Part shown: piece by piece, positions 13,071 through 51,949 of the stretch
Position numbering within the stretch: the stretch's first letter is position 1
Layout: every line of letters starts with the position of its first letter
From: Amphiura filiformis
Lineage: Eukaryota > Echinodermata > Ophiuroidea > Amphilepidida > Amphiuridae
Length of the DNA: 64,000 nt
Assembly (NCBI RefSeq): GCF_039555335.1
Contig: NC_092646.1
Span: 36,391,695 to 36,455,694, forward strand
Direction: 5' to 3'
Translations under genes and position numbers: made by a program
Notes under the pieces: model-generated
What the model was told of the DNA's origin: nothing
The model's database searches: none
Seen by the model: the letters and a program-made list of their open reading frames with translations, nothing else

Positions 13071-13291
13071 TTATGTTATAATAATATCAATTACCCTCTG
13101 CGCATCGCCAGTAAACGGATACGGATTAACGCCGTTGTAGGGCATGAGTTGGAGCTGTGGCTGTGGCTGCAGTATGCCCTTCGGAGGATTGATAACATTG
13201 CGAAAACAGAAGAATGCAGCGAGAAACAACCCCACGATCACACCAGTTAGGGCAATTCCTCCAAGAATGATCCCGATAAGTCCTGCATTGT
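13071..13291 (-). CDS. Exon 14: transmembrane helix, short cytoplasmic tail, stop
   Basis: Acceptor TTTTTACAATAG; the frame runs to TAA at 13073-13071. AGLIGIILGGIALTGVIVG then LFLAAFFCF is a 28-residue hydrophobic helix stopped by Arg, holding two GxxxG spacings (G-IIL-G and G-VIV-G) typical of helix pairing. The 43-residue tail is rich in Pro, Gln and Asn (ILQPQPQLQLMPYNGVNPYPF). AATAAA lies 21 nt past the stop (13050-13045 on the minus strand), followed by a long AAAT repeat, which favours this as the last exon. A weak donor at GCGCAGAGG/GTAATT could instead extend the gene. Confidence 0.8.
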
Positions 13292-16200
13292 CTATTGTAA
13301 AAATGGATATAGTGACCGTGCAATTTAATCATAGACGGACCCTTGAAATCATACGGGCACATTTTAATCTTAAGACTCTGATACGTGAATTAGACAATAA
13401 TAACTGCGCACCATCTATTTTGAGGTCATTGTGTGAAATCGGAGGGTTTTGTTTTGGGCTGAGGTATAAAAGTACCGAGGCCTTAAACAAAACCCGACAA
13501 TTACCGTCGTATCTAATATTTTGAACAAATCAAAATGGCATTTTATGTTATTTTATGCCATAAAACGTTAAATATAACCAGTGTTAATCATTGTTGTAAC
13601 CTACCCTACAAAATAAATCAACCAGGCGAATAATTATAACATTCGCGCCGACAACAAGAGCTACCAATCACAGAAGCGGGCCGGCATCGCGTAGGCGTGT
13701 GCGTTGCCATAACTCGTAGCTTATACATGCACGTTCGCTCAGAAGTCATTGTTGCGCGTCCGGAGTTATTAATGACCTCGCAATTAGTGTGCGGTCAGGC
13801 AATCAATTTCTTTTGATTGGATTACAGGCTTCGCGTATATTAATGAGGTTATGAATGTCTATAATACGTCATCAAATTATAAATTTAGACCATTAATATT
13901 TTTCACACATATTTTTCCACTCATATTGACCCAAACTCGACCTGACATTTTAAGACTCGTGACTTAAATCGAGTCGAGTAGAATCATTGAAGTGTTGAGC
14001 CGAGTCATTTGGGATGTGAGACTCAAGAGTCCGAGTCATAGTGGATTGAATACGCGTGTCGACTTACGAGTCTTCGAGCCCTAAATGACTCGACTCGAGA
14101 CTCGACTTTGACGACTCAACTGGTCATAAAAAAGTAATTATTTGAAAGTGGAATATATGTAATTGAAGACCGAATTTAAAAGACTAGTTTGCGTCTGACG
14201 TCAGGGCAAAGGCGCAGCGTGATTGGATGCTAACCTGCGCAGTACGGCATTTTTGGTCTGGTTGACAGGACGTCATACGCAATCTAGTCTTTTAATTAGG
14301 TCTTTAATTATAAGAGGCCCGTGTACCTTCTTCATGTTCTTCGATGCAAATCGGTGGTTGAGGAGACCAGATAGCATAGTTGTCCGTAACAAGGTTACAC
14401 GTTAGTGTTGACATCCCTACTAATCGATAGCCAGACTTGCAACTGCAAGTTACCTGTGAACCGACGCCATGGATGTTTTTGAGTGGTACGTTACCGTTGG
14501 CTAATTGCAGGGAGGAACATGTGATTTCTGCAAAAACAAAAAATGGACCGTGACATAATTTTTTAACATTGTTAAAGATTTCTTACATTTAAAATAGAAT
14601 GGTTGACAGATAGCCTCATCCCCAGCTTTCTTTCCTCCATTAAAAGATAGATATCTACGTTGCATTGTAACTGTACTATGTATAATTATGCAGCTGAAAA
14701 AAAATAATTCGTTTCAATTTTACAAGCTAAAAGTGCTCAAAAAGGTAACCCTTTTTGTATTTTTGCTCTTCAAATGGACCTTTTTGTCTCTCAGGTGAGA
14801 ACTGGTTTGAAAACAACATCATGTGACTCCTTTTGAATACGACGTGTCTTTTACATTGAATAGTTAAGGGTAGGCGAGGTATTGTTGGTCGAAGCAGCCA
14901 AAAAAAAAATCGATTTTTATTAACTAAATTAATATATTACTAAAAAATACCACCTTGCTGTTTTGCAAAAGTTCATTCTACAAATCATATACTTTGAAAA
15001 CTTGCTTGATTTATTATTGTGAATGAGTTATGTACGTTTTACAAAAGTGTTGCTGTTTCAGCCCTCTTTACTACATAACTCAAGAACCACAGGACCTACA
15101 AAAGTATATCTGTGATATTTGAATTCTTCTACACATTCGCTTTGAAATGATCAATCCATTTTTTGCCAAGGCTCACTAACATTCGCAAGATGCTGTGAAC
15201 TACCAAATCGCATAAAATAGTTGCTAACCTTAAGTCACTTGAATATTCAGCGGCTCAGGGCTAAGGATAGATAATGCCCCCAAAGAATACACAATGACGC
15301 ACCTCCCCCAATTCGTAAAACAATTGCGCGCGGAGCGCACGACAATTTGCACAAATAGGGCCTACCACTTATTGATTTTGTTTATAATGAAGGTGAACAT
15401 TGAACTTTCAAATAATCTTGCGCGCAAAAATTTTGACTTTCATCGATTGGAGAGGGCGCAGAATCGATGCTAAATTGGTCAATTGGTGTCCCCCCTAAGG
15501 TGGCGCCCAGGGCACGTTCCCCCACGTTTCTCCCTCCCCGTAGCTACGTCACTGTGTATCTTGAAGTTGTCACCAGCACGTTTGAATTTACATTTGAGAT
15601 ACATCAATATACTATTGTCAATTGCAAAATTAAAAAGCAAAATATGATAACGAAATAACGTTACTTACGAGTTTGGCAACGGTAACCAGCATATCCTGTT
15701 TGGCAAACACAGTTGTTACCTTCAGCGCATACACCATTAACACAAACCGGATCACAGGATATTCCCTCTACTGTAACAGATATCATATACAAATAATACT
15801 ACCAGGAGAGGTAGAGGTTCTGGTGGAAACTATGGGTCCTTGGCGAGATCAATGGTATCATTTATAGTACAATGGATCTTACCAAGGGACCACAGTTTTA
15901 ACCAGAATCTCGAAAAAAGGCAGTATATATTTGTTTTATTTACTTCATTAATATATTCTCCGTTCACCGAAGGAGCCAATTTCTCGACCCTAAAAATATG
16001 GATATAGGCACCAAAATCAAACGTCTATGAGTTTCACAGACTGAGTTATGATCAAAAATAATATTATTTGATGTCAGATTTCAAAATGGCCGCCACCATA
16101 CAAAGATGTAAAATTATTTGATCATTATATGATTTACCGAATACAAAAAAATGTGGTTTGCAAGAATCTACCCAAAACGCGCACTCATCTTCATTTTTAC

Positions 16201-19200
16201 ACACAAGTATATTAAACAGTTCAAAAACAACTAGTTTTTTGACCTTAGCTTTCGGCTAGCGCTAAGCCTTCAACGGAGGTGCTAGGTGATAAAAAAACTA
16301 GAAAAACTACTGTGATGTGAGGAAATATTACTATACGTGCGGAAGTTTTTTTTTATGTTTAGGCCCAGTGGTTTGAACACAAGGGTATGTACTGCAAACA
16401 GGCTAACTGTTCCATCACAAAGAGAGCGGCCATATGGATGTCATCAAAAGTACTATTTACGACTTGGAGTTCCTACTTACGGCAAAATATTCTTTATGAC
16501 TTACAGGTACTATTGCTACTGATGGTAGAGATATTTGTGGTCATGTGATCCAGAAAGTGCAGTTTTCAAACCCAAAGTTTTACAAAATAACAAACAAACA
16601 CAAATTTCGACCGGCACACAACCCGACAAAAAGTAGTAAGGGAATGTCGAGGCGCTGTATTTGAACCTATGCCCTTCTAATCACGAGACTAATGTTAATT
16701 ATTAGAATGTAATATATGACTTACGATCATTAGATACAATCACAACTGTTACTCGATCAGGAAATCGAATTTGGCCATTATTGTTGATTCCGTCATTCGG
16801 TTGCAGAACCAGTGAGAATTTCTCATCCTTTTCATACAAGCTGTCATCAGTTGCACAGACTCGAAGTGTGTGTGAATCTTCATTGTTTTCAAACTGTATG
16901 GCGGGAGAAATGCCCTGAATTGCATAGTCGCTGGTATCGGCACTTGATGGTCCCGGGGTTGATGGTTCAGCAGTGACACCTGTGAAAAACCAAGACAAGT
17001 TGTAGTTTGCTTTAGTGAATCACCAAATACATGCGTACATACGAAATGCGTAACTGGATCTTTATGAGAAACATTATCCCCTGTGAGGATGGTTTGGACA
17101 GAGGTGCCATATTTTTAACAACCTCATCCCGCTGAGCTGAAAAGGAAGCACCAGACTTTTAATGTTTTGTTATATTCAGTAAGGTTACAGTTAGCCATAT
17201 CCTTTATACTGAATGCTACAAAACACCAGAGCCTGGGTGCCAGTGGCGTAGCCAAGTGGAGGAGGCAATGATTGGCAGCTTCCACCTGTGAGAAGTCATA
17301 CAACTTCGCATGATGACCCTGGCTTACTACCAGACTAACCCCTCAGTTGTCGCGTCAACGTACTGTGTTGACAGGTGAAAAAAATTTCGGGCACATTCTG
17401 TGTCAGTCTATCTAAGACTGCAGTTGGCTCTAATTTGACTGTGTTGTTTTTGATCTAGTACTCCCAACCCCGGGCTCCCAACGGGACTCCCAACAACTAC
17501 GCGGACGTTTGCTCCGATAGGAAGTCGCCAAGTCCCTCGCGAATATGAATCCAGCACGATACGAGAGGTAAGGTTTTGAAACCCCTGAGCACTACCTGCC
17601 GATCTAACATTGCCTCTGATTGGTTAATTACATGATATCATTACTTCAATCACCAATCAGAATGGAGCTTTGCAAGTATTTCACCCCACTATTTTTGCGT
17701 GGTGAAATTATTCTAACAATGTTGATGATTGGTCCAATTGATAATGAAAACTTTTTGGCCAATCGGCAGGTAGTTCTTATGGGTTAAGTCGTCACTGAAA
17801 GCTATGCGTTTTTTTAGTCGTTACTAGCTAGCATCGTCGAGCTGATTGAATTCAATTTAAAGATTAAATTCATAGTTCACAGATGTACTGTAAGCTGTTC
17901 TGTTTACCACTCGTTGCTCAGCAACGCGGCTCTCTTCTTCAGATTGTATTGCCTATCGTCTCTGTTCACGGTCGTGCTTGATTTTCTATGCTTCTTTAAT
18001 CCAAAGTTTTATATTTCGTTAATCTTCTGAGCAACGAGTGGCAAACTGGAGGTGGTCACAACAACATTAGTGTTAATAAATAAATCGATAGATTTCAAAA
18101 CGTCCACAGAAAGTGCTGTTTTATTGGACTAGAACTATGAAATTCGTTTTAATTTTAATAGTCCTGATGACCATGTTCAGTAATCTATTTACTGCGTGCA
18201 TGCCATGATGTAGATTAGAATGTGGTGATTACTTACGAACGGACGTGGCTTTATCCAGGTACCCACATCTGAGAATTTTTACTTCAGTGCATTGACCCTC
18301 CTCTACTCGGGCAAATATTCCTTCAAAATAGAACTGATCTATAAGTGCAAAGATAAAACTAGATCTGGTTACAGATCTGGACCTAGCCGGGGCCGGAAAT
18401 GCCAGTCTTAACTTAAAGTTTGACCTTTGACCGGCTATTATGGACATCTCACATAATGGTGCATCACTGTAGCATGTAGGGGCTTTATCCGTCTTCCACA
18501 GGCTGAGATACAGCTACTTTTCCGTAATTTTAAACTTTTTTTTGCAAATTTTTCGTTTTGAACTCCTTAATGACCTTTTACCCCAATATAAAAAAACCCT
18601 TATATACACCGAGAAAATGCATAGTTACAGTTTAAATAAAAAAAATCTACTATGCTTAGAAAAAAAAAAAAAAATTCTTGAAGTTATTTAGCTTAAAACC
18701 GGAAATGACGTCTAAATGACCTTTGACCAAAAAATAAAAATACCGTGCATACATCGGGTAACACTAATGCATATATGAAGTTTATATCACTCTGGTCTGG
18801 TCACGTTTTGAGATATAAAAAATGAACATATTTGATGATTTTGGTTTTGACCGGAAGCAACCCCTTAATGACCTTTGACCCCAAAACTGTAGACACCCTT
18901 AAGACCCTGGTTAGTAGCAATGCATGTGTGCTAATGACAACACTCTGCTATGTAATTTGTAAAGACAGTGATTTTTTGAATATTTTTAGCATTCTGACCG
19001 GAAATGACCCCTTAATGACCTTTGACCCCTTATATGTGAACACCCTATAGACACCAACCAAAGTCAAGTAACATGACCAAAGCATGTCACCATCACATGT
19101 AATTTGTGGAAGAAGAAGCATTTTGAAGATATTTGGTTTTATCCGGAAATGACCCCTTAATGACCTTTTGACCCCAAATCTGTGAACACCCTATAGACAC

Positions 19201-28200: not shown

Positions 28201-31200
28201 AATGTTCACGTGGTACGCCTATACGCGCGCATTTCTGTGACCTTTTTTGAATAATTTGGTTTTGGTATGTGTATGCGAAAGGGGTGGTTGGTCATAACAG
28301 TTTTCAATCATATGTAAGGAGGGGGGTCATCAAAGATTTCAATCCGTGATAAGGGGGTCATCATAATAAAATTTGACTCCGGACACCGACATACTCATGA
28401 CCCCCTTCCATCACGCAATTAAAGAATATATGTGACGTGTCATGTCAAAAGGAGACACGTTTGGGCAGGTTATCAATATTGAGGTTTTTACATATCTTAA
28501 ATATAGAGATATGTTGCTCTACAACGCCGTTTTCTCCAATGAAATCGCACATTCGTAAGCGAAGATATTGAGTTCGTAAGTTATGGTATCAAAAAATTTG
28601 AAATTATTTAAAAATAATATTGACAATGGTGAGAGTACGAATTACAATGAAAAATGTCTCCAAAAATATGGGATGCCAGTTATGTTCCGGGCTGAAACTA
28701 TCAGACAATATTTTAAACATTGATAACATAACAAATTCGCAACAAACCCAAATTGTGAAAAAATCACCCCCGGGCAGATTTTTGGCTATTTCTCCATTTA
28801 CGATCCTGCCCAAAAGTGTCTCCTTTTGACATGACGTCACATATCTTTAGAAAAACAATGGCATAGTGTAAATCAAAACTCAGGGTACTATCATGCATCA
28901 TGGTACCCCCATTGTGGCAAATTTGAAAGTAGCTTTAATGTCTTTAAAAGCTCATTAAAGGTAAAAAAGTGTTATAAATTAGTTACCGATTGTTGATTCT
29001 CTATCAATGTTTCCACGTCTTACTACAGTTAGAGTTACCGTTTCCGTATCCCCTTGTAGCGGCTCAGTTACAGCATAATCGTGATATTTGAAAGAGAACA
29101 GAGCTGTAAAAAACCAAAACCGTTGGCCATCGACGGTTAGAAGGTAAGTTATGTAACTGAAGCACCAATAGTGCCATGGCCATGTTAAGGGTACTTGCCC
29201 ATCAATTTCATTCAGGGGCGTGTTTGAAAAACGGCACAGCGCATTAGTAAAAAGAATAAAAAATACTAAAATTTTCACCGGGGTTCGAACCACTGCCAAC
29301 TCCACTATGCCTACTGTGCCACCACAGTGCTGTGCCATGGTGACTGTGGTTAACATTCGGCGATTTTAAAAGATATAGCCTACATATCAACACGTTTCTA
29401 GTGTAGGCCTATTGAAAATCAGATTTTGGTAGGAATACGGTCATAGAAAGACATAATGACTCTACTTGTCTGTTTGTTTTTCATTTAATACAAATTAATT
29501 TTGATGAATTGAACTGGTACGACTCTTAGGACTCGTGATAAACGACGATTAATTTAGTAATAATAAAATGAAAACGCTGGGTCATTCACGACGTGATTTG
29601 TAATTCATGTCAAAACCTGGGGAGGACCACACACATCCGTGTTGAATGTATACGTGCGCAATCGATACTCAATGATCCAGACAATAGCGTTTGAATATAC
29701 CGCCCTTATGTCACTTGCGGGAAGATATACTATAGGCCTACCCTAATAGCTTACAATAGATACCCCACCGTAAATAACTCTGTTCATTACCTCGCTGTCC
29801 CAGTATATACGCCTAGCGTACGCACTTTTGAACCATATTTTGTTCAAAAATGATAGGAAGGGACTGTTTTCAGCTAAAATGTTGGTTATCAGCAGATGCT
29901 TGATGATACCGGGAAGTGTTGCAGAAAGGTAAGCGTACTCTTTATTTATTCAAAATATCACATATCAATGAATTTAAATTGGAAATCCAAAACGGAAATG
30001 TCAGGTCAAAATTTTCACCTTAGAATTATTGTGAAATAAAATCAAACCAAATTTGGGCTCCGCAAACAACGTCCAATTATTCCCATTGGTGTTTGCTACA
30101 CGTGCATATAATAAATTATGATTTGGGGCTAATTTGAGAAGAGTTAATGCCTCGAGTTTCAAAATACACCGAGTGATGTTTTTGATCAAAAACATCGACA
30201 ATTCAAGACACTGTAAAAACAAATCAAGAATTTTCTGGGATAATTGCAACTAAGTATAATGAAAGTTATGATCTAAGCTACCAGATGCATCATTAATTTC
30301 CTGACTATGATATTTAGTTGTGGGAAAAGATTACTTTAATGTTTTGGCGGGATTATTTCCCGCCAAAAATTTCAACCAAAAAGAGCATGTAGCCTTAAGT
30401 CGTATGCAGACTCCGAGTATTAGACGTATAATATTGTATGTAACATATCTACGTTATTTAATCTATTGCCATTCTATTAATGTTTAAGTTCTAACGAACG
30501 TTTGATGACGAAAAAACGATAATATGTTACATATAATATCTAGCAGAAATATTTTATCGATTTTACGTTATCAAACATTCGTTAGAACTTAAACATTAAT
30601 AGATTAAATAACGTAGATAATGTTACATACAATATTTTACGTATAATAAAAAGTCTGCATACTGCTTTAGCAGCACAATAGGTTTGTGTTCATCCATTCG
30701 TTTATTTAATATCACCTGTATGCAAAGCGTCATTTTATAAAAGCATTTTGCCATCATTGTACTCTTTTACTCACACCACTCTTCTTCATACATAAATTGT
30801 CCCAGCCACATTTCCCTAACATAATAGGAAATTTAAAAAAAGGAAATTTAGTTCGGCAGAGGTGAGGCTCGCGCTGCTATCGTGTATACAGTATTGACAT
30901 ATTACCAGCGCCTTGCCGCTCGGCCACCTGACTTGTTGGTGCCATCTTGAAAATTTGAACATATAATCACAACTTCAACATACCACGTAACAAGCAAAGA
31001 CAGAAAACGTACCATATTTTGGAATTTTATTTGCTTATATATGATGTGCAATAAATATTCATATATTCTTTTATACATAGGATGCTTCAATTTTGAGACA
31101 AAAATATTTCATTGAAAACCCTCTTACTCGGCTATTTAAAAAAGATAACCACGCTTCCCTAGAATGTGCAATAAATTAGCATTAAAAATTGTCTTACTTT

Positions 31201-34200
31201 AGCAGCATTCCAGAAACACTTGGCGTTTCGCGAAAAGAGGAGTATCTTTTACTGTACTGGCATTAGTTTTGCATTGAATTGATGAGTCGAATTAGTAGTT
31301 GACAGAGGATGCAGGCCATCCTATTACGCCATTGTTAATTAAAACATAATTATCGTCATAGCAAATACTCAACTCACACTTTTGATGATCGTATATAGTT
31401 ACAAAGGCTCTTCCAGGACGACCGATTTTTCCAGTACATACAGATGGATCGGGATCAGTAGGATGGTAGAGATCAACAGCAAACATCTCCGGTCCTTCTA
31501 CTTCACCGTCACACTTAATGGTAATTTTCACAGTTTCCTGTAGGGACCCTAGACCGAAGACGATGTTACTGAGAGATACGGGAACGAAATCATCCGAATT
31601 CGCGGTTAACGGGATTGTTGAATATTCTGAAAAGTAACATGATGTTGTGAAAATACATAAATCAAATTCATCATAATAGTGTGGCAGGGTAAATTAATGT
31701 GACAGAGACGACAAAATTAAAAGATGGGTTATTAAACCTATTTTGCTAAAGAAAACTGTTTGTTTTTTTATTTATCTTTTTTATTAACGCAAATAGCCAA
31801 GTCATTATTTGCGATTCAATTTGAATTTCTATTATTTAATTTACATATTCAGTGTTTCTAAAGTTCAAACGTCAATTTTCATTAACGCAATGTCCAATTG
31901 CTTTGAAATCTGACACATACTTCATTGATATGTAGACCTATATATATTATACAGGCATAGAACAATGTTTTAAAAAAGTGCAGAATTAAACGAGTCTACC
32001 GCTAAATGTTTTATAAAAAAAAATCTGAACAGAATTCAACAAAAAGTTACGGACAAAAAATTGCGCGCAATTTTAACCAAAATATCCAATTATCCAAAAT
32101 ATCCGTTGCCATGACAACCGTGCATTTAACAGTCTTTTTTCGTTATCAGGGACACGATCTGACCAAATCTGAAGTGATTTGGATGATTCATTTGGAAAAA
32201 TCACCTTCAATTTTACCGTAACTGTTATACAGGGTATCAAAATAAAAACAGAACCCTCATTGGGCCCTCTTTTTTCTTGTTTCTGCAAAGTTGATCAAAT
32301 TGTATTTTGGTATGTAAAAAAACCTTAAATCGTTAGTTTTAATAAACCAAAACAATTATTTCAATCAGCTCACAATATTTGAAGATATGCCCTCTTTAAG
32401 AAATGTACCCGAAGTAAGAAGTAAGAAACATAATAAAACAAAAAGGCATAAATAACCAAGAAAAATAAGTTTAATTGCAAGTACCACAAGAGACGTCTCA
32501 TCCCACATCCATTTTGCCGACAAGTTAATGACTCTTAAGGGATGGGGTATGAACGTTTGGACAGTATTTATTTTGGGACATTAGAGCACATCAGACATAT
32601 CGAATTGCATTCTGAATACGAAGAATGTCATTCTGATATCAAATAATTTTGATTTTTGAAATTCGCAATTTAATACACATTTTATGGCAAATCATTAAAA
32701 TTGATATTTTTGATATTTAACAGTACTTGAAGTAAACTTTATAAATCTGATGATTTATACTTAAAGTGTATGTAGGTGGGATGAAAAGCCAACGATCAAT
32801 TGAAAATTTTGACCTTTCGTATTGAAGATATGGATTTTTTTCCCAAAACACCAAAAAAAATTAGGTCTTTTGGGGAAAAAATCCATATCTTCAATATGAA
32901 AGGTCAACATTTTCAATTGACCGTCGGCTTTTTCTCCCTGCTACATACACTTTAAGAATATATCATTAGATTTATATAATTTACTTCGAGGACTGTTATA
33001 TATCAAAATTTGAAAAATATCAAATTTTTATAATTTGTCATAAAATTTGTATTATATTGTGATTTTTAAAAAAGGAAAATTATTTGATATCAGAAAGACA
33101 TGCTTCGTATTCAGAATGCAATTTGATAGGTCTGAGGTGCTCTCATGTCCCACAAAAAATACTGTCGAAACGCAATAAACGCTCATTTTGGATCCCTTAA
33201 CACAATCCATAGCCCATATGCCCACCGGTAAAGCCCATTCCCTAAATAATGTTTGTTATTTTATAAATATCAATATCATTGAGGAACGCTTGATATTCAT
33301 GTATGGTACGTGTACTTTTTTTCAATCTTTGAAGTAGCCAAACTTCCTCCGTGGACAAAGTGAGAAACGGGTACATTTCTTTAAAAAGCATATCTTCAAA
33401 AGTTCTGAGCCGATTAGGGTTTCTTTCGGTTTATTAAAGCTAACGAATAAAGGTTTCTTTATATACCAAAATATATTTGATAAACTTTTAAGAAAAAGAA
33501 GGCGCAGTGAGGGTTCTGTTTTTATTTGGACACCCCTGTATATACAAATACATTTAAAAAACGTTTTCATGTTATATACATATCCCGCATTGAATGTTAT
33601 TTAAACATTGTGACCAAACCCAGTACACGCTTAAACCACTAATAAAATGCCGTGATCACACATTCTCGAGGGGGAGTGTAATCTGCGCTTAAAAAGGACG
33701 AGTTAAGAAACCTCCCCCAATAACATTGGTTCTACCAGAGACGAGTTAAAAAAGTTCTTCGTGGTGAGTAACTCGAATCTTTAACTAGTTTTGGCCTAAC
33801 TCGCCATCTTTTAACTAGCCAGTTGCCCACACACATTCTCGGGTTAGTCAACTGAAGTAGCCACCAAAATGCATGTTATAATAGAAAAACAGATAAATAG
33901 ATAGTACTGTAATCCAATACAAAAAACCTTGATATACTTATTTAATTTGTCAGTGGTCTTACGTATGGTTTTAGCGGCAAGAATACCGGTTCGTTTAACA
34001 GTCAATGACAGCTCTATGTCGTCAGCGCCCTCTACGACTTCATAAACTTCAGATTCAAAGCAAAATTCATCTGAAAGGTAATTGAACATAATAAGCTTAA
34101 CATTTTTACCCGTACACGTACTGTACGAATTTTATTTACATACATGCAGTACCGTATATAATTTGGCACTAGATTAAATAGGATTCACACTGAAATGATA

Positions 34201-34705
34201 AATTCATCCAAGTGGTTACGTAGTCCATACAACTTGCATAATATACTATGAAAACAAAACTCAGTATTTTAGTGGTTTTACTCTTATGTCTTTAAACACA
34301 CTAATATTATGTTAATTAACTTACCATCGTTATCCACGATAAGAACTTCAAACCCGTCTTGCGGGTCGGGAGTATCCAAGAAATCCAGGTTATTTTGAGG
34401 TCTTGATAAGACTGAAAAGACCTCGTCACCTTCCACGTCACAGTCATCAACGGTATCAATCGGGATGTAATCTAAATCGCCTTGACGGTCGTAGTCCCCA
34501 ACATCTAGTCTATAATTAATGTAAGTAAACCAGCCTGTGCCCCGGGCATCCTCCACAATCGAAGGCAGCCTTTGACCATCGTGTTCTATCACAAATTGTC
34601 CGTAGTCTTTACTAGAGGTTGCTTTCTTGTCGCAGTTAAGACCTGGGTCTCCAAAATTTAGTCCTTCATCTGCCAGACAACCATCCCTGGTGTAGAACAC
34701 TGTAT

Positions 34706-34801
<96 letters not shown>

Positions 34802-37800
34802 AAGAAGAAGAAGAAGAAGAAGAAGAAGAAGAAGAAGAAGAAGAAGAAGAAGAAGAAGAAGAAGAAGAAGAAGAAGAAGAAGAAGAAGAAGAAGAAGAAG
34901 AAGAAGAAGAAGAAGAAGAAGAAGAAGAAGAAGAAGAAGAAGAAGAAAAGAAAAGAAAAGAAAAAAAAGAAAAGAAAAGAAAAGAAAAGAAAAGAAAAGA
35001 AAAGAAAAGAAAAAGAAAAGAAAAGAAAAAAAGAAGAAGAAGAAGAAGAAGAAGATGATAATGCTAATAATAAAGGGGTAAAGGCTACAACAGCAAATAT
35101 TTTGGGGTCATGGGCCATCATTGTACCAAGTACCAAATTCTGCACATATTGACCCTTGTAGTCCTTGATCTTTAACTCCTGGGGTAGAGGCTACCATAAA
35201 AAAATATCTAGGGATAAAGCCAAAAAACATGTTTGTTTCCTGTAGCAGGTCCAAAAAGTCTAATGGGCCATCATTGAACTAAATATTTCGCATTTGACTT
35301 TTTGGATCTGCTACAGGAAACAAACAGCATAAACCTATCCACTCTATAGTGGCGTAGCCAGCACATTTTCAGAGTGAGGATGGCGGGGGGGGGGGGGCAA
35401 ACAAACGAAAATGATCAGAAATGAGCTACAAAATACAATAAAAGCATCTAACTGGGAGGTAAGAATGGGGACAAGACTTCTCACAGGGAGGCAGCTTCCC
35501 CACTTTCCCTGGCTACGCCACTGCCACTCTACACACAACACGCCCCTCAAACTATGTGTAGGTCACGCATTTGTTAAATTCTTACATCCAGTGGACGCAT
35601 CAAGATAGATACTGGAACCACCAATGTAATCCAATATATCAGTTGTCGCATGAATCCATACCGTCTCCCCTTCCTCATAAGAACACGCTGGTTGGAAATC
35701 ATTGACAACATCAAATGGGGCTGCCGCATCACAGGTCAACTGAGCTATAGAGGTGAGAAATTGGTAAAAGTGTACGGTATGTCATTGGGAATGTAAAATG
35801 AACAGAAAGGAGGGAAAAAGACCATCAGCATGCTGTTTGGTTATTATGAGTAAAGCGGTACTTATATTTAATGTTGGGTTAAAAGTATTAATCAAATGAT
35901 TTTCAATGTTCAGACGTTTTTACTTTGTCATCATTTGGAACTTTATATATATACGGTATATATACAAATTCAAAGTATAGACCTCTGTAAAAGGCAACCG
36001 TTACTACTAGTTTCACAGCATATATATATACGCCCCCACTATTTATAGTGGTTGAGCACTTTCGACTACATTTGGAGTAGAGACTGCTGGAGGTGGCTTT
36101 TGTCATGCTTCTGACACCACAGAATGTATATTCATGTATATGCATTACTGTTAAGTTAAAACCATGACAAATTATACGTCTGATGCTTAGTATACACAAT
36201 GATCGTAAGTGAGGGTATGCTGTGAAACTAGTAGTAACTGTTGCCCTTTCCAGAGATCTATACATTGAATTTGTTTCTACGCTCACCTGTAATGGGTTTG
36301 ACCACTTTTAATTCCAAAGTTAATCACCTGAAAAATAATACTTGTTATATTACGCCCCCACTATTTATAGTGAATTTGTTTCTACGCTCACCTGTAATGG
36401 GTCTGAGCACTTTTAATTCTAAAGTTTATAGTCACCTGAAAAAAGAGCTGGCAAAGTATTTGCTCGCGGGCAACTCAACCCAAACCTCCACGTGGTGTCG
36501 GATGGATAACGCGAACTTGGGCTCTGGGGAACAGGCTTGGATGCGAGGAAGTCAAGCTAGCGGAGGATCATGCAAAGTATTTTGACCACGTTTCAGTCCT
36601 TCCTCGGCTGACTCAGCCTGGTGTGGCTCTGAAGAGACACCGTTTGGTTTTTTACCACGTAGACAAAGAAACAAATTTGGATTCATCGTACGAGCATATA
36701 CAGCAAGAGATATACAACGAGCTAGGCATGAAGAAGATAGAAATAACTAAGATGCAGTGAAGCAGATAATTACGTATTGTGACTGAATGGAAATATATAG
36801 GTGCAACTTGACAAAGGAGTGAGTACTGGCGCAAATAACCTCAGTAGTTGAAAGCGCCATACAAATCAACCAAAAAAAAAAAAAGACAAATTATCCGTCT
36901 GATGATCGGTATACCCAATGATCGTAAGTGAGGGTATGTTGTGAAACTAGTAGTAACGGTTGCCTTTTCCAGAGGTCTATACTTTGAATTTGTTTCTACG
37001 CTCATCTGTAATGGGTTTGAGCACTTTTAATTCCAAAGTTGGTCACCTGAAAAATAATACTTGTTATATTAGCATGAAAATCACAAAAAATGAACTTTGC
37101 TGAGAGGAGGACTCGAAATAACGACCTCGGCATTACTAGTCGCCGCGCTCTACCACTGAGCTATGACAGCATCTAGTGGCGAGGATCGAGTTTTAGACCT
37201 ATGCAGCGTTCGTCTGTGACATGTCACAAACTTGAAGGCTTGCGGGTAACTGAATCACCGTTGTTGTTAAAAAACTGGCGATCGCCCTCAAGTTTGCGGC
37301 ATGCTTTGATGAGTAACACTACTAATTTAGTGCCAGTGTTAATAAAGGGTCAGCACACTTTTTAGAAGGACATTTAAAGAATCCAGGATCTTCCAAAACA
37401 CGTGGTGTAGGAAGTCTTGCTGACACCAAGAGGTCCTTGATTTAATATATGGTGTGTGTATGCAGGGATGTAGGTGTGGTGTTTGTATGTCTGTGCATCC
37501 AGCTAGGACACACACATAAAATCCACAGAACAAACATTAACATTGACAACAGCCGAAGAGGTTCTTGGTGGAATAATTCAGATTATAGGTATATACCTAT
37601 ATTCTGAATATACCGCAAAAACTTATTTCCAAAGGGGTCCTTATATTACAGAAAAAAGATAATAAAAGTTAAGACTGGTAAAAAAACACCAAAAACCAAA
37701 AACAAAGCATTGGAGCAAAACACAACAAACTAGACATTCATTTGATTTAAAAGGTGAGCTTTGACGTCTTTTTTAAACTGGTATTTCAGTGAAGCAGATT

Positions 37801-40254
37801 TAATATCTTCCGGCAAGCTATTCCAGTTTTTGATAGCATTAAAATGAAAAGAACCAGAACTAGATTTGAACAAAGACCTGATCCGTGGAACTTGAAAATT
37901 AAAGTCCTTGTGCTGTAATGATGCACACTTGATAGGCTAGTAAAATTCTCATTCATGTAATCAGGACAAGTATTGTAAAAAATATTAAAAACATGATTTA
38001 ACGGGGCTGCTCAGCTCTGTTATTTATATTTAAAATGCCAATATTTTGAAAATCAGAGCACTTCCCTGGTCAGAGTGACTGATGTGATACCAAAAATCCT
38101 TATTCAGGAGGAAACGAATGATTTTGTTTTGAGTACATTGAAGTCTTTGCGCGTGATATTTGGAGATGCCTCATGCCTGCATAACATGAAGAGATTGAAT
38201 AGTCAAAAAGGCAAAGAACAAGAGCTGAGCAGATCGGGTTTTTTATGCTATGATTAAAAAAAATTTGCTTGCCTCTAAAGGAATTCTAGGCGAGAGTTTA
38301 CTTTCTTAAATATATTAAAAACAATTTGTTCACCTTCAAGATATTGATTTAGTTCGAGCCCAAGATAAACTAGAGACTGTTTTGCGTTGATAATTTGACC
38401 GTCACATGTGATGGAAAAATCAGGATATTTGTTAACTTTACGCTTAGATCCAAAGAGAATTAGTTCATTTTTGCCCATATGAAGCGACAATTTGTTTTCA
38501 ATTAACCATTTATTACAACTTTGCAGAGTAGTGCTAAGTTTCTGGGTCTTTATCAGAGTACATCAGGGCACTATCATCAGCATATTGTAATAGTAAACAA
38601 TCAGCAGAGTTTGGCATATCATTCACATAACAAAGAAATAAAAGAGGCCCTAAGATACTGCCCTGAGGTACCCCGCGTGTTATGGTAAGGGGATCAGACT
38701 CAACCCTATTGATGTTAACAATCTGCTTTCTATCAGAAAGATAAGAATGAAACCAAAGGTGTTGATTTCACACCCATAGCCGACAACTTATTGCACAGAA
38801 TTTGGTGGTCTACACTGTCGAACGCCTTCTGGATGTCCAGTAAGATCATCGCAGTGTAGTAACCGGAGGCTGTCTGCTTCCTAATGTGATCTTGCAAATG
38901 AATGAGGCAGGTGTCCGTTGAGTATGATCCCCTAAAACCAGACTGAAATTGATAAAGAAGCTTGGTTTCAACCAAGGAATTGTTCAATTGAGTAAAAACA
39001 GCTTTCTCTAAAATCTTTGAAACAACAGAAAGAATACTCACTGGCCTGTAATTTCCGGCATATTATGATACGATAAATAATATAAATATACGCCTGGGTA
39101 TGTCCCTGTCAGACCCGTGACGGGCCCGGACTGTAAATTATATGTTTATCGTAGTGTGACCCCATGGTAAACTTACCTCTGTGTATTGTCAGTGGCAGGA
39201 ATACGAAAACATTAGCTCTTGTCAAAGTTATATTTAGAGAATGAATTTGATGCTTACGTATCAGCGCTTTGATTCCTCTAAGATCTGGAGAGAGGCGCTT
39301 TACAAATCCAAAATTAATTTCAATTAGTGGTGCTTTACAAGTTTTGTTGTTATGATTATAAATATGGTCGAAAGTTGGATGATATGTGTATATGACATAT
39401 TTTTGGTCCGAACGTGAAATTGTGGTAGAAATGAAACACTATGCATTTTGCTTGGTAGCGAAATTGCATGAGTTTGCAGATATGTTGCTTGAAGATCGAT
39501 AAGCCCCATTACAAAATCAAATCATGTCATGTCATGCATGTTGATATCATGTTAATAAAAATTCTTAAATAACAACAGGACGCTGGTCCGAAGACGATGT
39601 CGCCAATCGCGGTTAAGCCCCCCCCCCAAAAAAAAGAGAACAGAAAAGGGAGAAAAAGAGAGGGAAAAAGTTAAATTGCACGTAATTGAGTAGTCCCATA
39701 TGCCTAAAAAGCGCACGGTCGGGTTGATCATAATAATAGGCTTGGGATTATTTTAGCTATTGCTTGGAGGCGAGTCCTCGGCCAAAAACATGTGAAAATT
39801 ACTGCGGGCCCGTCACATTTTATCACCAAAATCAGTATTAAGACGGACTCAATGCTGACTTTAACAATCCATGCATACTTTAGTAATTCCGAGTCTCAAT
39901 CTCAGATAAAGTAGAGCAGTGTAACATTTAACATTTTACAAATTGAGTTCGGGCCCTTTTTTTGTTTAAAGTAATAATAATTAATATAGGCCTAAGTAGT
40001 TAAAAATGCACCAAATGGCTTTAATTGGACCTTTATTTTGCAAAAACTTCCTCAGACACCCCCTCAGTGTTGACCCGTATGATTGCAAATAACATAATTA
40101 GCCGGCAGTGGTATTGACTAGATATACCCAACAGCGGAAAACGGTTTTCGTAATTTAAATAAAAACTATACTTACTTTGCAAACTATTATCGTGTGAGGC
40201 CTCCACGTACTTCAAGAAAATGAAGAAAGCAAGCAACTGAAATTTATATCCCAT
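13071..40254 (-). CDS. Calx-beta x5 / EGF / Sushi single-pass membrane protein (14 exons, complete)
   Basis: Fourteen exons on the minus strand join into one open frame of 2,553 nt (850 residues): 40176-40254, 35586-35744, 34325-34699, 33963-34070, 31378-31626, 28987-29103, 26534-26773, 25557-25664, 24157-24393, 18237-18338, 16725-16979, 15669-15770, 14327-14527, 13071-13291. All introns are GT-AG and phase 1. Approximate layout: signal peptide 1-19; Calx-beta-like domains at 27-204, 205-323, 324-442, 443-557 and 558-676; EGF-like 677-710; Sushi/CCP 711-777; membrane helix 780-807; cytoplasmic tail 808-850. Calx-beta domains are known as calcium-binding beta-sandwiches in integrin beta-4, FRAS/FREM, ADGRV1 and sponge aggregation factors; EGF and CCP modules are typical of extracellular binding proteins. 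I infer a cell-surface adhesion or recognition protein. I know no named gene with exactly this order. The splice model is by eye; the last exon could have an alternative 3' end. Confidence 0.85.
13930..14115. repeat. GAGTC/GACTC-rich degenerate repeat (intron 13)
   Basis: Words such as GAGTCGAGTA, GAGCCGAGTCATTT, GACTCGACTCGAGACTCGAC recur in both orientations. No exon signal here. Confidence 0.5.
14327..14527 (-). CDS. Exon 13: Sushi/CCP domain
   Basis: 201 nt, TTTTTGCAG acceptor and GTACAC donor, phase 1-1. ITCSSLQLANGNV, VTCSCKSGYRLVG, STLTCNL and WSPQPPICIE keep the four CCP cysteines, the C-x-x-G-Y motif, the tryptophan and the P-x-C ending. One extra cysteine (VTC before SCKSGY) is unpaired in the usual scheme. 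The domain is membrane-proximal, ending in the acidic EEHEE just before the helix. Confidence 0.88.
15248..15554. mobile_element. Older hAT-like MITE in intron 12, upstream of the EGF exon's 3' side
   Basis: Ends CAGCGGCTCAGGGC and GTAGCTACGTCACTG with an imperfect flanking pair TGAATATT/TGTATCTT (6 of 8). It sits between exons 12 and 13. The GGTGGCGCCCAGGGCACGTT block is shared with the copy at 758-1095. Confidence 0.6.
15669..15770 (-). CDS. Exon 12: EGF-like domain
   Basis: 102 nt, GTTACAG acceptor and GTAAGT donor, phase 1-1, one domain per exon. Six cysteines in the order C-x3-C-x4-C-x5-C-x-C-x8-C (SCDPVCVNGVCAEGNNCVCQ, then TGYAGYRC) fit a compact EGF-like module with the G-Y/F-x-G-x-x-C ending. 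No calcium-binding EGF consensus is seen. It links the Calx-beta array to the membrane-proximal Sushi domain. Confidence 0.88.
15806..15915. repeat. Hairpin upstream of the EGF exon (intron 11)
   Basis: Imperfect arms GAGGTTCTGGTGGAAACTAT / CAGTTTTAACCAGAATCTC and GGGTCCTTGGCGAGATC / GGATCTTACCAAGGGACC around a TATCATTTATAGTAC loop. It lies 36-145 bp upstream of the exon 12 acceptor on the gene strand. Confidence 0.6.
16725..16979 (-). CDS. Exon 11: second half of Calx-beta domain 5
   Basis: 255 nt, TTTCACAG acceptor and GTAAGT donor, phase 1-1. SADTSDYAIQGISPAIQF, DSLYEKDEKFSLVLQP and VTVVIVSND give the D-Y, acidic and terminal strands. A Pro/Ser/Thr-rich start (TAEPSTPGPSSADTS) is longer than in the other domains and could be an O-glycosylated loop. 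Confidence 0.86.
17244..17290. mobile_element. Single end of the hAT-like MITE family
   Basis: CCAGTGGCGTAGCCAAGTGG followed by GGCAGCTTCCACCTGTGAGA matches one terminus of the family (compare the right side of 35347-35523, which has GGAGGCAGCTTCCCCAC). The other end is missing. Confidence 0.5.
17890..18075 (-). pseudogene. Penelope-like 3' end fragment (intron 10)
   Basis: CTCGTTGCTCAGCAACGCGGC and CAGATTGTATTGCC match the Penelope remnant at 9402-9520; on the minus strand a short reading VNRDDRQYNL corresponds to the C-terminal M-N-R-D-E-x-x-Y-N-L signature. A second GAGCAACGAGTGG block at 18024-18040 is the inverted terminal piece. Confidence 0.55.
18237..18338 (-). CDS. Exon 10: first half of Calx-beta domain 5
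   Basis: 102 nt, CTTATAG acceptor and GTAAGT donor, phase 1-1. QFYFEGIFARVEEGQCTEVK continues into ILRCGYLDKATSV, the first Calx-beta strands with two cysteines that could pair. The upstream 5.8-kb intron is the largest of the gene and is packed with repeats. Confidence 0.82.
18357..20390. repeat. Tandem duplication (~0.94 kb x2) rich in TGACCTTTGACC
   Basis: AACTAGATCTGG(T/C)TACAGATC at 18357 restarts at about 19294, and the order of words (ACCTAGCCGGGGCCGG, CATGTAGGGGCTT, ACCGTGCATACATCG) is the same in both halves. Inside each half the 30-bp phrase ACCGGAAATGACCCCTTAAT plus GACCTTTGACCCC recurs at about 150-bp spacing. It ends in two GACCTAGCCGGTGTCCCGGC units. The block lies in intron 9. 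Confidence 0.8.
20530..20715. repeat. GTGTTAA-type low-complexity repeat
   Basis: Words AACGCGTTGTAGTGTG, TTAACACAACGTAGTGTTAA, GATGTGTTAGAAC. Similar sequence resumes at 23612-23775 (GTGTTATCCATCGTGTTAA, TTCAACGTGTTAAAAAC), suggesting one repeat interrupted by later insertions. Confidence 0.45.
20741..21760 (+). mobile_element. Mariner/IS630-like transposon, internally deleted
   Basis: Long terminal inverted repeats of over 200 bp: GTCAAAAGAAGTAAACTCAT at the left and ATGAGTTTACTTCTTTTTGAC at the right, extending through GAGGGGCTGTAACTCGAG and CTACAAAATGGGTGGTTGTA. The interior keeps only the N-terminal part of a transposase. Confidence 0.8.
21102..21450 (+). pseudogene. Transposase N-terminal (helix-turn-helix) remnant
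   Basis: From ATG the reading MAPQFTARERTFLSTKYHET continues with stops and a shift into NKLNVHGTLRNRLSEASDRP, RTARSQVNITRVRHALQQDQ and, in another frame, SSFCRFVRKDLNWYP. This is the N-terminal DNA-binding region of a class of mariner/IS630-like transposases found in marine invertebrates. The catalytic DDE part is absent. Confidence 0.7.
22725..23610. mobile_element. Inverted-repeat element with CTTACACGTGTAAG subterminal repeats
   Basis: Ends ATGAATGGCCAAGTGGACCA and TGGTCCA...CCACTTGGCCATTCAT, followed inward by several TACGTGTAAGATTG / CTTACACGTGTAAGATGCAA units and by CAACCAATCATCTTACGCG / GCGTAAGATGATTGGTTGTT. Arms about 190 bp. The centre holds an uninterrupted 108-codon frame (22913-23239, minus). 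Confidence 0.75.
22913..23239 (-). CDS. Unrecognised 108-codon frame inside the inverted-repeat element
   Basis: Starts MLQWHVLYAETLSGIVRIVE and ends SLVEDEYA before a stop. Contains KYYACKKCYSE, a lone C-x-x-C. No family is recognised and no splice or promoter signal is clear. It may be a captured host fragment, a short protein of the element, or chance. Confidence 0.25.
   Translation of the reverse strand: MLQWHVLYAETLSGIVRIVEPSDLSHFLVTFFSYLESICTQYRIISSGGSKIITFAKSTVGHIDMEAEIIRCSSNVLVKLEYRPSLIGKYYACKKCYSEISLVEDEYA
24157..24393 (-). CDS. Exon 9: second half of Calx-beta domain 4
   Basis: 237 nt, TTATCACAG acceptor, GTAAAC donor, phase 1-1. AKSRQDYNALQNYPISFG, QTSVTVPIVIVNDENKETDE and DATVFIKDDD carry the D-Y, N-D-x-x-x-E-x-D-E calcium-site region and terminal acidic run expected of a Calx-beta domain. 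Confidence 0.87.
24841..25099. mobile_element. GCGCAAGAAGACC fold-back MITE, copy 2 (intron 8)
   Basis: GAAGACCTGAGCGCAAAGAA at the left and TTCTTGCGCTCAGGTCTTC at the right, with the same internal words as 11266-11512. It lies between exons 8 and 9. Confidence 0.8.
25557..25664 (-). CDS. Exon 8: first half of Calx-beta domain 4
   Basis: 108 nt, acceptor TTATTATTAG and donor GTAAGT, phase 1-1. SCIEFAKPVDSVLESSSE then VSVTLWRSGNVMDATQI keeps the two-strand pattern, with Ser-rich VLESSS replacing the usual V-x-E-G turn. Confidence 0.82.
25849..26489. mobile_element. Fold-back element in intron 7
   Basis: Left CAATTGAATATATGAATACA then AAACCCACCCAAGTCCATA; right ATGGACTTGGGTGGGTTTTG then TATTCATGTATTCAATTG. 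CCACCCAAGTCC-type words recur inside at least four times. Its right end is 44 bp from the end of exon 7. Confidence 0.7.
26534..26773 (-). CDS. Exon 7: second half of Calx-beta domain 3
   Basis: 240 nt, phase 1-1, acceptor TCTTTAG and donor GTAAGT. STQSGRDYTPPASLSLNFVQ, KDVSIDINSDASEEDPETL and TTVVTIHDSS match the conserved D-Y, acidic E-D-P-E-x-F/L and terminal strand of Calx-beta. This is the clearest of the five domains. Confidence 0.88.
27028..27365. mobile_element. G/C-run-ended repeat element (intron 6)
   Basis: TTGGCTAACCCCCGGGGGGG at the left and CCCCCCCGGGGCCAACC at the right, with GCGGCGCGGAGCGCCG and GGGCTTGAAGAACTGAAATT, GGGGCTCAAGGAACTG words between. No transposase. Confidence 0.6.
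28431..28850. mobile_element. Fold-back element in intron 6
   Basis: TGTCATGTCAAAAGGAGACA then CGTTTGGGCAGG at the left; CCTGCCCAAAAGTGTCTCCT then TTTGACATGACGTCACATA at the right. Arms about 40 bp over 420 bp. Confidence 0.7.
28987..29103 (-). CDS. Exon 6: first half of Calx-beta domain 3
   Basis: 117 nt with a TTTACAG acceptor and GTAACT donor, phase 1-1. LFSFKYHDYAVTEP followed by ETVTLTVVRRGNIDRESTI is a textbook Calx-beta N-terminal half. The tRNA-like SINE at about 29280-29340 sits 180 bp upstream in the same intron. Confidence 0.85.
29275..29345 (-). repeat. tRNA-like SINE fragment (A and B box words)
   Basis: On the minus strand TGGCACAGTAGG fits the RNA polymerase III A box and GGTTCGAACCCC the B box. 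Their spacing (18 nt) is too short for a folded tRNA, so this is a decayed tRNA-derived repeat, not a tRNA gene. Confidence 0.45.
30000..30400. repeat. Dispersed repeat, inverted copy (intron 5)
   Basis: GGGCTCCGCAAACAACGTCC, GCCTCGAGTTTCAAAATACACC and GGCGGGATTATTTCCCGCC correspond in reverse to 8715-9010. It lies between exons 5 and 6. Confidence 0.6.
30405..30668. repeat. Fold-back element in intron 5
   Basis: Arms CGTTATTTAATCTATTGCCA / AATAGATTAAATAACGTAG and AATGTTTAAGTTCTAACGAA / CGTTAGAACTTAAACATT, with ATGCAGACTCCGAGTATTAG and AGTCTGCATAC outermost. Confidence 0.7.
31378..31626 (-). CDS. Exon 5: second half of Calx-beta domain 2
   Basis: 249 nt, phase 1-1. Contains SDDFVPVSLSNIVFG (D-F where D-Y is usual), QETVKITIKCDGEVEGPEMF (acidic calcium-site strand) and AFVTIYDHQ (terminal strand ending in an aspartate). 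The Cys pair CDGE and VCTG may form a disulfide, unusual for this fold. Confidence 0.83.
32225..33541. mobile_element. Inverted-repeat element (outer) split by a second palindrome
   Basis: TACAGGGTATCAAAATAAAA then CAGAACCCTCATTG at the left; GTGAGGGTTCTGTTTTTATT then TGGACACCCCTGTA at the right, and AGATATGCCCTCTTTAAGAA / TTCTTTAAAAAGCATATCTT further in. The arms are about 190 bp; the element at 32527-33205 sits inside. Located in intron 4. Confidence 0.7.
32527..33205. mobile_element. Nested long palindromic MITE
   Basis: TTAAGGGATGGGGTATGAAC and GGACAGTATTTATTTTGGGA at the left; TGTCCCACAAAAAATACTGTC and TTTTGGATCCCTTAA at the right. Nearly the whole 680 bp is palindromic about 32,860 (CCATATCTTCAATATGAAAG / TTTCGTATTGAAGATATGG). 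The words AGAGCACATCAGACATATCG recall a widespread invertebrate MITE family. Confidence 0.75.
33963..34070 (-). CDS. Exon 4: first half of Calx-beta domain 2
   Basis: 108 nt between a TTTCAG acceptor and a GTAAGA donor, phase 1-1. The product EFCFESEVYEVVEGADD continues into ELSLTVKRTG, the canonical first two strands of a Calx-beta domain (F-x-x-x-x-Y-x-V-x-E-G, then L-T-V-x-R-T-G). It joins exon 5 in frame. Confidence 0.85.
34325..34699 (-). CDS. Exon 3: second half of Calx-beta domain 1, with insertion
   Basis: 375 nt, phase 1 at both ends. Calx-beta signatures are ATSSKDYGQF (the conserved D-Y), DVEGDEVFSVL (acidic E-G-D-E-F strand) and a terminal FEVLIVDND. Roughly 45 extra residues (around RLPSIVEDARGTGWFTYINY) sit between the D-Y motif and the acidic motif, so this domain is longer than the other four. 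Its splice acceptor lies 3 bp from a 350-bp microsatellite that takes the place of a normal polypyrimidine tract. Confidence 0.8.
34702..35058. repeat. Composite microsatellite (AAT)n(AAG)n(AAAAG)n
   Basis: About 22 AAT, then about 58 AAG, then AAAAG units and AAG again. On the gene strand it reads TTC/TTA and runs into the exon 3 splice acceptor at 34,700. Confidence 0.9.
35225..35330. repeat. Hairpin in intron 2 to intron 1 flank
   Basis: GTTTGTTTCCTGTAGCAGGT then CCAAAAAGTC is mirrored by GACTTTTTGGATCTGCTACA then GGAAACAAAC. It lies between exons 2 and 3. Confidence 0.6.
35347..35523. mobile_element. hAT-like MITE in intron 1 with 8-bp target duplication
   Basis: Ends TAGTGGCGTAGCCAG and CTGGCTACGCCACTG, flanked by CCACTCTA at 35339-35346 and 35524-35531. 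A G-run near the left end (about 13 G) and a short 177-bp length mark it as a young internal-deletion form of the family. Confidence 0.82.
35586..35744 (-). CDS. Exon 2: first half of divergent Calx-beta domain 1
   Basis: The exon is bounded by a CTATAG acceptor and a GTAAGA donor, phase 1 at both sides, 159 nt. It codes for about 53 residues containing CSYEEGETVWIHATTD, which fits the start of a Calx-beta domain (the S-V-x-E-G-E-T strand), but two cysteines and a longer tail make it atypical. It always precedes exon 3, which carries the more recognisable C-terminal half. Confidence 0.75.
35950..37080. repeat. Three copies of a ~150-bp unit in intron 1
   Basis: GATCGTAAGTGAGGGTATG, GAATTTGTTTCTACGCTCA and TAATGGGTTTGACCACTTTT occur at 36200-36355 and 36918-37073 in direct order, with an inverted piece (CAAATTCAAAGTATAGACCT, ACTAGTTTCACAGCATA) at 35965-36025. 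ACGCCCCCACTATTTATAGTG occurs twice (36030 and 36352). Confidence 0.65.
37098..37170 (-). repeat. tRNA-Thr(AGT)-like sequence, decayed
   Basis: Minus strand GCTGTCATAGCTCAGTGGTA then GAGCGCGGCGACTAGTAATG and TTCGAGTCC give a D arm, an anticodon region with AGT and a T loop. The T stem does not pair and the anticodon loop has eight bases, so it is a pseudogene or SINE head. Confidence 0.45.
37735..39058 (-). pseudogene. CR1/Jockey-like LINE, 5'-truncated reverse transcriptase
   Basis: Begins in the fingers region (RPVSILSVVSKILEKAVF), then FQSGFRGSYSTDTCLIHLQD and the catalytic-domain A motif ILLDIQKAFDSVDHQIL. The YADD region (LLQYADDSAL) and GxxQGSILGPLLF are present only with frameshifts. 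The C-terminal part reads LSLHMGKNELILFGSKRKVN and, at 37,740-37,900, FHFNAIKNWNSLPEDIKSAS. Stops and shifts make it dead. It sits in intron 1, same strand as the host gene. Confidence 0.85.
40176..40254 (-). CDS. Exon 1a: start codon and signal peptide
   Basis: The ATG at 40254-40252 opens a 26-residue frame beginning MGYKFQLLAFFIFLKYVEA, a hydrophobic core followed by a small-residue V-E-A cleavage site, so the mature protein probably starts at SHD. The exon ends TTGCAAA before a strong GTAAGT donor, one base into a codon (phase 1), which joins CT of exon 2 to give Thr. A near-identical exon with the same length and phase lies at 51402-51480. Confidence 0.8.
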
Positions 40255-40470
40255 TTTCGTTTCACGTTACATAAATTTCCAGATTTGTTGGAAAAGCAGA
40301 GTCAAATGGAATGGTGCATAACGTTGAGAGAAACATTCAAATAATGCCGCTGTAAGGAGGTCGCTGCTTTTCTTGTGACGTTTACTCTACTAGACATGCA
40401 ACAGGTTTATGGAATCATTATACCTCACGCATAATAAAAAACACCTAAATTCATATACTAGTATGTCACC
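40255..40470 (-). promoter_or_regulatory. 5' flank of exon 1a, conserved in the exon 1b copy
   Basis: The stretch just upstream of the ATG (TTCGTTTCACGTTACATAAA, TTTCCAGATTTGTTGGAA, CGCTGCTTTTCTTGT, TACTCTACTAGACA) recurs in the same order upstream of exon 1b, broken there by two insertions. It must include the 5' UTR and perhaps the core promoter. I see no clear TATA box; the transcription start cannot be placed. Confidence 0.45.
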
Positions 40471-40556
40471 GACGAATATGACATGTAAGGTCATTCAAAA
40501 GTTTCTCAACCGTATCTCTTCTTCTGTAAACGTACGCTTCTTGAAGCTGTACAAGC

Positions 40557-50669: not shown

Positions 50670-51401
50670 ATCCATTTGTACATCTATAGTCGTGTTCACA
50701 CAGTCGGACTTAAATCACTTATTACCGGTCTTAAATTACGTCGGTAATAGTATCGGATATAAGTGGCAGTGTGAATTAGCGTCGGATATAACTATATCCG
50801 ACGTAATATAACTATATCCGACGTAAAACGCAGTCGTTGGATTGATTCTACATTGATTTCCTGAAAGCTGTGTATTCAAAGATTACCTGTTCAAATTTTC
50901 ATATATTTGTACATATTTGTGGATTTTTGTGATACTTTTTGAATGGTATTTTTTTTACATTACCTGCGAATACAATTTTTCAGTTCAGATCATGAGACAA
51001 GTCGTAGGAATCCTACAACAATCCGCAACCCCAACCAAAGAGCAGAGGAGGTACCCAGGAAAATTTGCCTACCGACGTCAGGAAGTAGGGTATAAAATGT
51101 TGTTTTAAAAAGGGGGGCCATTGGGTATAATATTTTGCAAAAAAGGGGTTCATTTTGTATATAAAATTGTAATGGTAATAAAATAGCATTTAAGCAAATT
51201 TATTATGCAACAATTTGCCGGCCGAATGAATAAAGAACTCCAAATGAAATTATGAAGTAGTCAAAATTAATTTAATGTACAGAATTTGTTCATGGTGATT
51301 AAATTCATATAAAATAATCATTCAGGTCAAAACTGGGCGGATTGGAATCTAATTGGATACAGCGAATCGTTCTTCGTAATTAAACTAAAATGAAGACTTA
51401 C

Positions 51402-51480
51402 TTTGCAAAGTGGGATCGTGTGAGGCCTCCACGCACTTCAAGAAAATGAAGCAAGTAATCAGCAGAAACGTACATTCCAT
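51402..51480 (-). CDS. Exon 1b: duplicated start codon and signal peptide exon
   Basis: A 79-nt exon with the same length, frame, phase-1 end and GTAAGT donor as exon 1a. The product begins MECTFLLITCFIFLKCVEA and 16 of 26 residues are identical to exon 1a, with VEASHD and the final LQ kept. The flank is also similar (ACATAAATTTCCAGATTTG at both). No Calx-beta exons lie between 40.3 and 51.4 kb, so it is either an alternative first exon of the same gene (splicing to exon 2 gives the same Thr codon) or a leftover of a partial duplication. Two MITEs sit in its 5' flank. Confidence 0.6.
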
Positions 51481-51571
51481 TTTTCGTTTGACTTCACATA
51501 AATTTCCAGATTTGTTGGAATTTCAGTCAAAAAAATTCAAAACAGGAATGGTGCCATTCAACTAATGTTGT

Positions 51572-51897: not shown

Positions 51898-51949
51898 TCG
51901 CTGCTTTTCTTGTAGCGTCTACTCTACTAGACAATCAACCGAGTATATA

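Follow-up and report, generated by a model that had tools for sequence, protein, structure and literature searches.

We analyzed a window of 64,000 nucleotides from the ophiuroid Amphiura filiformis (NCBI RefSeq assembly GCF_039555335.1, contig NC_092646.1, positions 36,391,695 to 36,455,694; coordinates below are those of the window). Our main finding is that its minus strand very probably carries, judging from the sequence, a real gene of 14 exons, whose 850 amino acids (aa) combine a series of Calx-beta domains with a candidate EGF-like module, a Sushi module and a predicted transmembrane helix. The order of these domains is unusual, while the parts themselves are common and lie on phase-1 exons. 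The microsatellites and reverse-transcriptase fragments, the length of the introns and the presence of EGF and Sushi suggest, by themselves, that the DNA is of animal origin. With a probability of roughly 0.5, we propose that this is one functional animal gene encoding a single-pass type I membrane protein, which would act in adhesion or recognition.

A very probable 14-exon gene on the minus strand

When joined by script, the 14 exons, which span 40254..13071 of the minus strand, splice into a coding sequence of 2553 nucleotides. The sole stop codon of the 850-aa frame is at its end, and all introns (13/13) have GT-AG ends and are of phase 1 (13/13); a preliminary description of this DNA, which had proposed 14 exons with consistent phases from start to stop, is thus confirmed on this point. 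The exons are as follows.

40176..40254, minus strand: exon 1, encoding aa 1-26 with the start codon and a hydrophobic N-terminal segment (probable signal peptide); its donor, GTAAGT, is in phase 1
35586..35744, minus strand: exon 2, divergent N-terminal module, first half, without Pfam match
34325..34699, minus strand: exon 3, divergent N-terminal module, second half, its end (aa 157-204) weakly Calx-beta-like
33963..34070, minus strand: exon 4, first half of Calx-beta repeat 1 (Pfam)
31378..31626, minus strand: exon 5, second half of Calx-beta repeat 1 (Pfam)
28987..29103, minus strand: exon 6, first half of Calx-beta repeat 2 (Pfam)
26534..26773, minus strand: exon 7, second half of Calx-beta repeat 2 (Pfam)
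25557..25664, minus strand: exon 8, first half of Calx-beta repeat 3 (Pfam)
24157..24393, minus strand: exon 9, second half of Calx-beta repeat 3, with KDDD at its end (Pfam)
18237..18338, minus strand: exon 10, first half of Calx-beta repeat 4 (Pfam)
16725..16979, minus strand: exon 11, second half of Calx-beta repeat 4 (Pfam)
15669..15770, minus strand: exon 12, candidate EGF-like module with six cysteines (below the Pfam cut-off)
14327..14527, minus strand: exon 13, Sushi/CCP module with five cysteines (Pfam)
13071..13291, minus strand: exon 14, predicted transmembrane helix, short cytoplasmic tail and stop (hydropathy)

As a control of the exon boundaries, every AG and GT inside the open frame around each exon core was scored, ignoring phase and using generic weights; this control presupposes the frame and core assigned to each exon. 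The site used in the model came out on top for 12 of the 13 acceptors and for 11 of the 13 donors. Whichever site scored best was in phase 1 for 12/13 acceptors and 12/13 donors, and the chance of at least 12 phase-1 sites among 13 is 27/3^13, that is, about 2e-5 per set, if phases are assumed equal (real phase frequencies are unequal). The donor of exon 6 ranks second of four, tied with a phase-0 site, and that of exon 10 second of six, the best-ranked donor there being likewise in phase 1. Immediately ahead of the exon 3 acceptor lies a microsatellite of about 350 bp, (TTA)n/(TTC)n on the coding strand (34707-35055), and changes in its length could affect the splicing of exon 3.

These junctions bear on the idea that two adjacent genes or transcripts have been misjoined, one for a Calx-beta protein and the other for an EGF-Sushi-transmembrane protein, or that exon 1 belongs elsewhere. 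Such an error would be favored by the long, repeat-filled introns and the weak acceptor of exon 3. We nevertheless hold it to be improbable, given that phase 1 is kept at every junction, that sites rank first or second save for the exon 3 acceptor, and that a second copy of exon 1 (see below) includes the donor and the 5' flank, which argues that exon, donor and flank form one unit. A setting rich in repeats could also suggest a decaying pseudogene, but with 850 codons free of stops and consensus-like splice sites we reject this very remote reading.

Four Calx-beta repeats and a divergent first module

The Calx-beta domain is mostly familiar as a calcium sensor of exchangers and from its repeated occurrence in very large proteins of the matrix and of hearing, and it is common in bacteria. 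Where the preliminary description counted five such domains here, four pass the Pfam cut-off; for the remaining one, at the N terminus (aa 27-204), Pfam gives no match, and profile searches give a weak signal, located in the second half. On the whole protein, the Pfam model (PF03160) matches four stretches with 169.8 bits against a cut-off of 27 (expectation value E 2.7e-50), and the repeats tested singly reach 39 to 60.2 bits each against the same cut-off (E 9e-10 to 2.6e-16). Each of these four domains is divided between two exons by a phase-1 intron.

In an alignment of the four repeats (A1), identity to repeat 2 is 21-32%, and the profile made from it matches the calcium-binding domains of NCX1 (E 3.3e-19) and CALX (E 1.4e-18) in the PDB. 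At the DNA level, blastn (E 1e-3) detected no similarity among the four first-half exons, and likewise none among the four second-half exons. Half-exons without DNA similarity, in repeats that all match Calx-beta singly, would fit old repeats under selection at the protein level. In profile alignments read by eye, all four repeats have acidic residues at the positions of D447, E451 and E454 in the first calcium-binding domain (CBD1) of NCX1, and the first module shares this acidic pattern (DDCDVEGDE). We take D447 and E451 to be Ca2+ ligands in NCX1. An excerpt of PMC4746289 gives E454 as the CBD1 counterpart of K585 in CBD2, and D499 and D500 as Ca2+ ligands.

The first module, 178 aa encoded by exons 2 and 3, matched nothing in Pfam at E up to 10. 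Its comparison with A1 in HHalign covers 24 columns (E 0.0027) with a probability of only 11%, and when the A1 profile was run on 2179 open reading frames (ORFs) of the window, the ORF of the first module obtained 8.7 bits (E 0.21), under the inclusion threshold. A wider profile, in which the four repeats are joined by four NCX1/CALX domains, scores the module at 8.2 bits, a level that 2 of 3000 shuffles attained; when run on the whole protein, it picks out aa 157-204 weakly (4.2 bits), in a stretch that stops at the exon 3 boundary. AlphaFold was uninformative for exon 3 alone (mean predicted local distance difference test score, pLDDT, 32). The module may be a divergent, Calx-beta-like one carrying an insertion, which these signals suggest and do not prove.

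The membrane-proximal part

Beyond the repeats, an EGF, a Sushi, a membrane helix and a short tail had been described. The Sushi module stands above the cut-off: Pfam PF00084 matches aa 714-771 with 29.8 bits in the whole protein and 35.5 bits in the exon alone, against 20.7. It has five cysteines (714, 738, 740, 754 and 771), the usual number in Sushi modules being four. The helix is also upheld, since aa 778-813, in exon 14, are the sole stretch above 1.6 in a 19-residue hydropathy window; it is followed by a tail of 43 residues, where Pfam found no signalling domain. As for the EGF, exon 12 has the six-cysteine pattern (682, 686, 691, 697, 699 and 708), but its best Pfam score, obtained with the exon alone, is 21.4 bits, under the cut-off of 24.3, so that an EGF-like module is supported at a sub-threshold level. 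One further property was noticed after the fact: the ectodomain (aa 21-777) lacks any N-glycosylation sequon, whereas 5000 shuffles contained 5.8 on average and none in 0.18% of cases.

The Sushi module raises the question whether the protein is a receptor or regulator of innate immunity or of the complement type, which would bind complement-like proteins or microbes through this module. Indeed, among the best 60 of 67 PDB matches of this module, most belong to receptors and regulators of complement (CR1, Crry, CD55, CD46, C4b-binding protein), together with viral complement-control proteins. These matches probably mirror, to a large extent, which Sushi proteins have been solved. Moreover, complement regulators carry several tandem Sushi modules, whereas Pfam identifies a single one here, and we regard a role in immunity as rather unlikely.

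Comparison with known families

To look beyond the 14 exons, Pfam was run on 144 of the 436 minus-strand ORFs between exons and on 127 of the 1255 flank ORFs of at least 20 aa; both scans took the longest ORFs, and exons in short ORFs could escape them. The intron ORFs yielded two members of the reverse-transcriptase family RVT_1 and one lone match (E 0.0073), and no further extracellular domain was found among them, alternative start or terminal exons not having been sought systematically. Two weak matches from the flank ORFs, each standing alone (E 0.0035 and 0.0048), are attributed to chance.

The likeness to the SLC8/NCX exchangers and CALX lies in the sequence of the Calx-beta domain. Unlike them, the present protein has a single predicted membrane helix; exchanger membrane domains were not found, and with the NCBIfam exchanger model the protein reaches 77.4 bits, where the cut-off is 679.85. 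Integrin beta-4 also contains a Calx-beta domain (a weak PDB match, E 0.052), which is cytoplasmic, but integrin beta head domains have no Pfam match here. The ectodomain of ADGRV1 bears Calx-beta repeats as well; its GAIN/GPS and seven-helix domains are unmatched by Pfam in the present protein, which has one hydrophobic stretch above 1.6. Exons 40-42 of human ADGRV1 encode parts of Calx-beta domains, according to an excerpt of PMC12481715, and exon boundaries within Calx-beta are therefore not peculiar to the present gene.

The FRAS1/FREM2 proteins come closer in layout: their Calx-beta domains, which number five in FRAS1, form an array that precedes a transmembrane helix. A relative of these proteins that was truncated or derived, with five Calx-beta domains and a transmembrane end but no CSPG repeats, could anchor epithelia to the matrix, possibly after shedding. 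The number and place of the repeats agree if the divergent first module is counted, and a sea-star Fras homologue has five Calx-beta domains, as quoted from PMC5460417. However, CSPG, VWC and furin domains have no Pfam match in the protein, the 127 flank ORFs or the 144 intron ORFs (short exons could escape), a start exon precedes the Calx-beta array, and EGF and Sushi modules are absent from the FRAS1/FREM architecture as quoted. Fras1 is also about 4000 aa long in the part quoted from PMC10095167, compared with 850 aa here. We consider this kinship possible but unlikely, if less so than an immune role.

Since the searches did not recover the domains that define FRAS/FREM, ADGRV1, NCX and integrin beta-4, the protein is assigned to none of these families. 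The earlier statement that no named family fits the protein agrees with the results from Pfam, NCBIfam, the PDB and the literature, among the top matches listed, and is to that extent partially supported. In an excerpt of PMC6208332, Calx-beta and Sushi are listed for separate genes. A search of viral contigs with the C-terminal 293 aa gave one pattern match and found no relative. Homologues labelled 'uncharacterised' may well exist in animal proteomes.

A second copy of exon 1

Upstream of the gene, part of its 5' end is repeated.

51402..51480, minus strand: second copy of exon 1, MECTFLLITCFIFLKCVEASHDPTLQ, with donor GTAAGT, phase 1, 11.2 kb upstream
51359..52699, minus strand: stretch with three segments of homology to the region 40131..40534, which covers the promoter region, 5' flank, exon 1 and start of intron 1

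The three segments keep their order and are 82% (51359-51520), 88% (51898-51939) and 76% (52589-52699) identical to 40534-40131. By tblastn, aa 1-28 match at 51480 with 57% identity (E 0.002), and a local DNA alignment of the exon region scores 180, compared with at most 33 in 500 shuffles. The copy retains the start codon, the frame, the length of 79 nucleotides and the donor. Its exon identity is 64/78 and 11 of its 26 codons are changed, 10 of them altering the residue, so that selection on this second exon is not demonstrated. It may serve this gene as an alternative start, or be what remains of a truncated tandem copy; both are possible. A complete second gene in tandem was also considered for the upstream part of the window and was rejected, the copy being limited to promoter and exon 1: beyond 41 kb, the next tblastn match of the whole protein has E 0.27, and those of the A1 repeat profile have E 5 or worse.

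Proposed function

If the protein is indeed a type I membrane receptor, the series of Calx-beta domains would form a Ca2+-stabilised rod, keeping the divergent first module, the likely ligand-contacting tip, off the membrane, and the EGF and Sushi modules would make up a disulphide-rich stalk. Such a protein would work in cell-cell or cell-matrix adhesion or recognition, and signalling, if any, would pass through partners.

Several observations weigh against this proposal. The N-terminal hydrophobic segment stays below 1.6 in the 19-residue window, and the signal peptide of the preliminary description is thus seen by eye and is not recovered by that threshold. Exon 1 is separated from exon 2 by a gap of 4.4 kb that holds reverse-transcriptase fragments; the acceptor of exon 3, which adjoins the microsatellite, ranks fourth of 15 candidates; and near the end of exon 14, an AGG/GTAATT donor was noted by eye, from which onward splicing would give a different tail. 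Of the repeats, only the third has the full set of C-terminal DDD ligands (NCX1 498-500). Finally, the function is argued from domain analogy alone.

The role in adhesion or self-recognition put forward earlier is an unproven hypothesis, prompted by the sponge aggregation factors. These have in common with the present protein an extracellular Calx-beta domain, and act in adhesion and allorecognition (as quoted from PMC10815962); by description, the only level at which the two were compared, they are proteoglycan, whereas the present protein is predicted to be anchored in the membrane and to carry EGF and Sushi modules. The analogy rests on Calx-beta alone, a domain of many otherwise unrelated proteins. 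All introns being of phase 1, exon skipping or shuffling could leave the frame intact. One may go further and imagine an undescribed invertebrate family of recognition receptors on Calx-beta rods, made of symmetrical phase-1 module exons and diversifying through exon skipping and duplication of promoter and signal exon, which would serve polymorphic cell recognition in the manner of the sponge factors; we view this extension as a long shot, less probable even than a misjoined gene model.

Other features of the window

Within the introns of the gene, three further features were observed.

38278-39062, minus strand: intron 1, ORFs resembling, by eye, a broken reverse transcriptase of the long interspersed nuclear element (LINE) type
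32554-33172: intron 4, matches its own reverse complement (84% over 629 columns), perhaps a mobile-element remnant
18350-20267: intron 9, a direct repeat whose two copies, each of about 980 bp, share 90% identity, ending near exon 10

The flanks contain the following.

10092-11040: tandem array of five 191-bp units, with strong inverted repeats
58284-58358, minus strand: tRNA-Thr gene (cgt)
53239-53314: 95% identical to 58303-58378, contains a weaker tRNA match

Significance

A compact receptor with four or five Calx-beta domains, an EGF and a Sushi module would be a tractable model for the function of Calx-beta repeats outside the cell. If it were polymorphic between individuals, which is hypothetical, the receptor would bear on self-recognition outside sponges.
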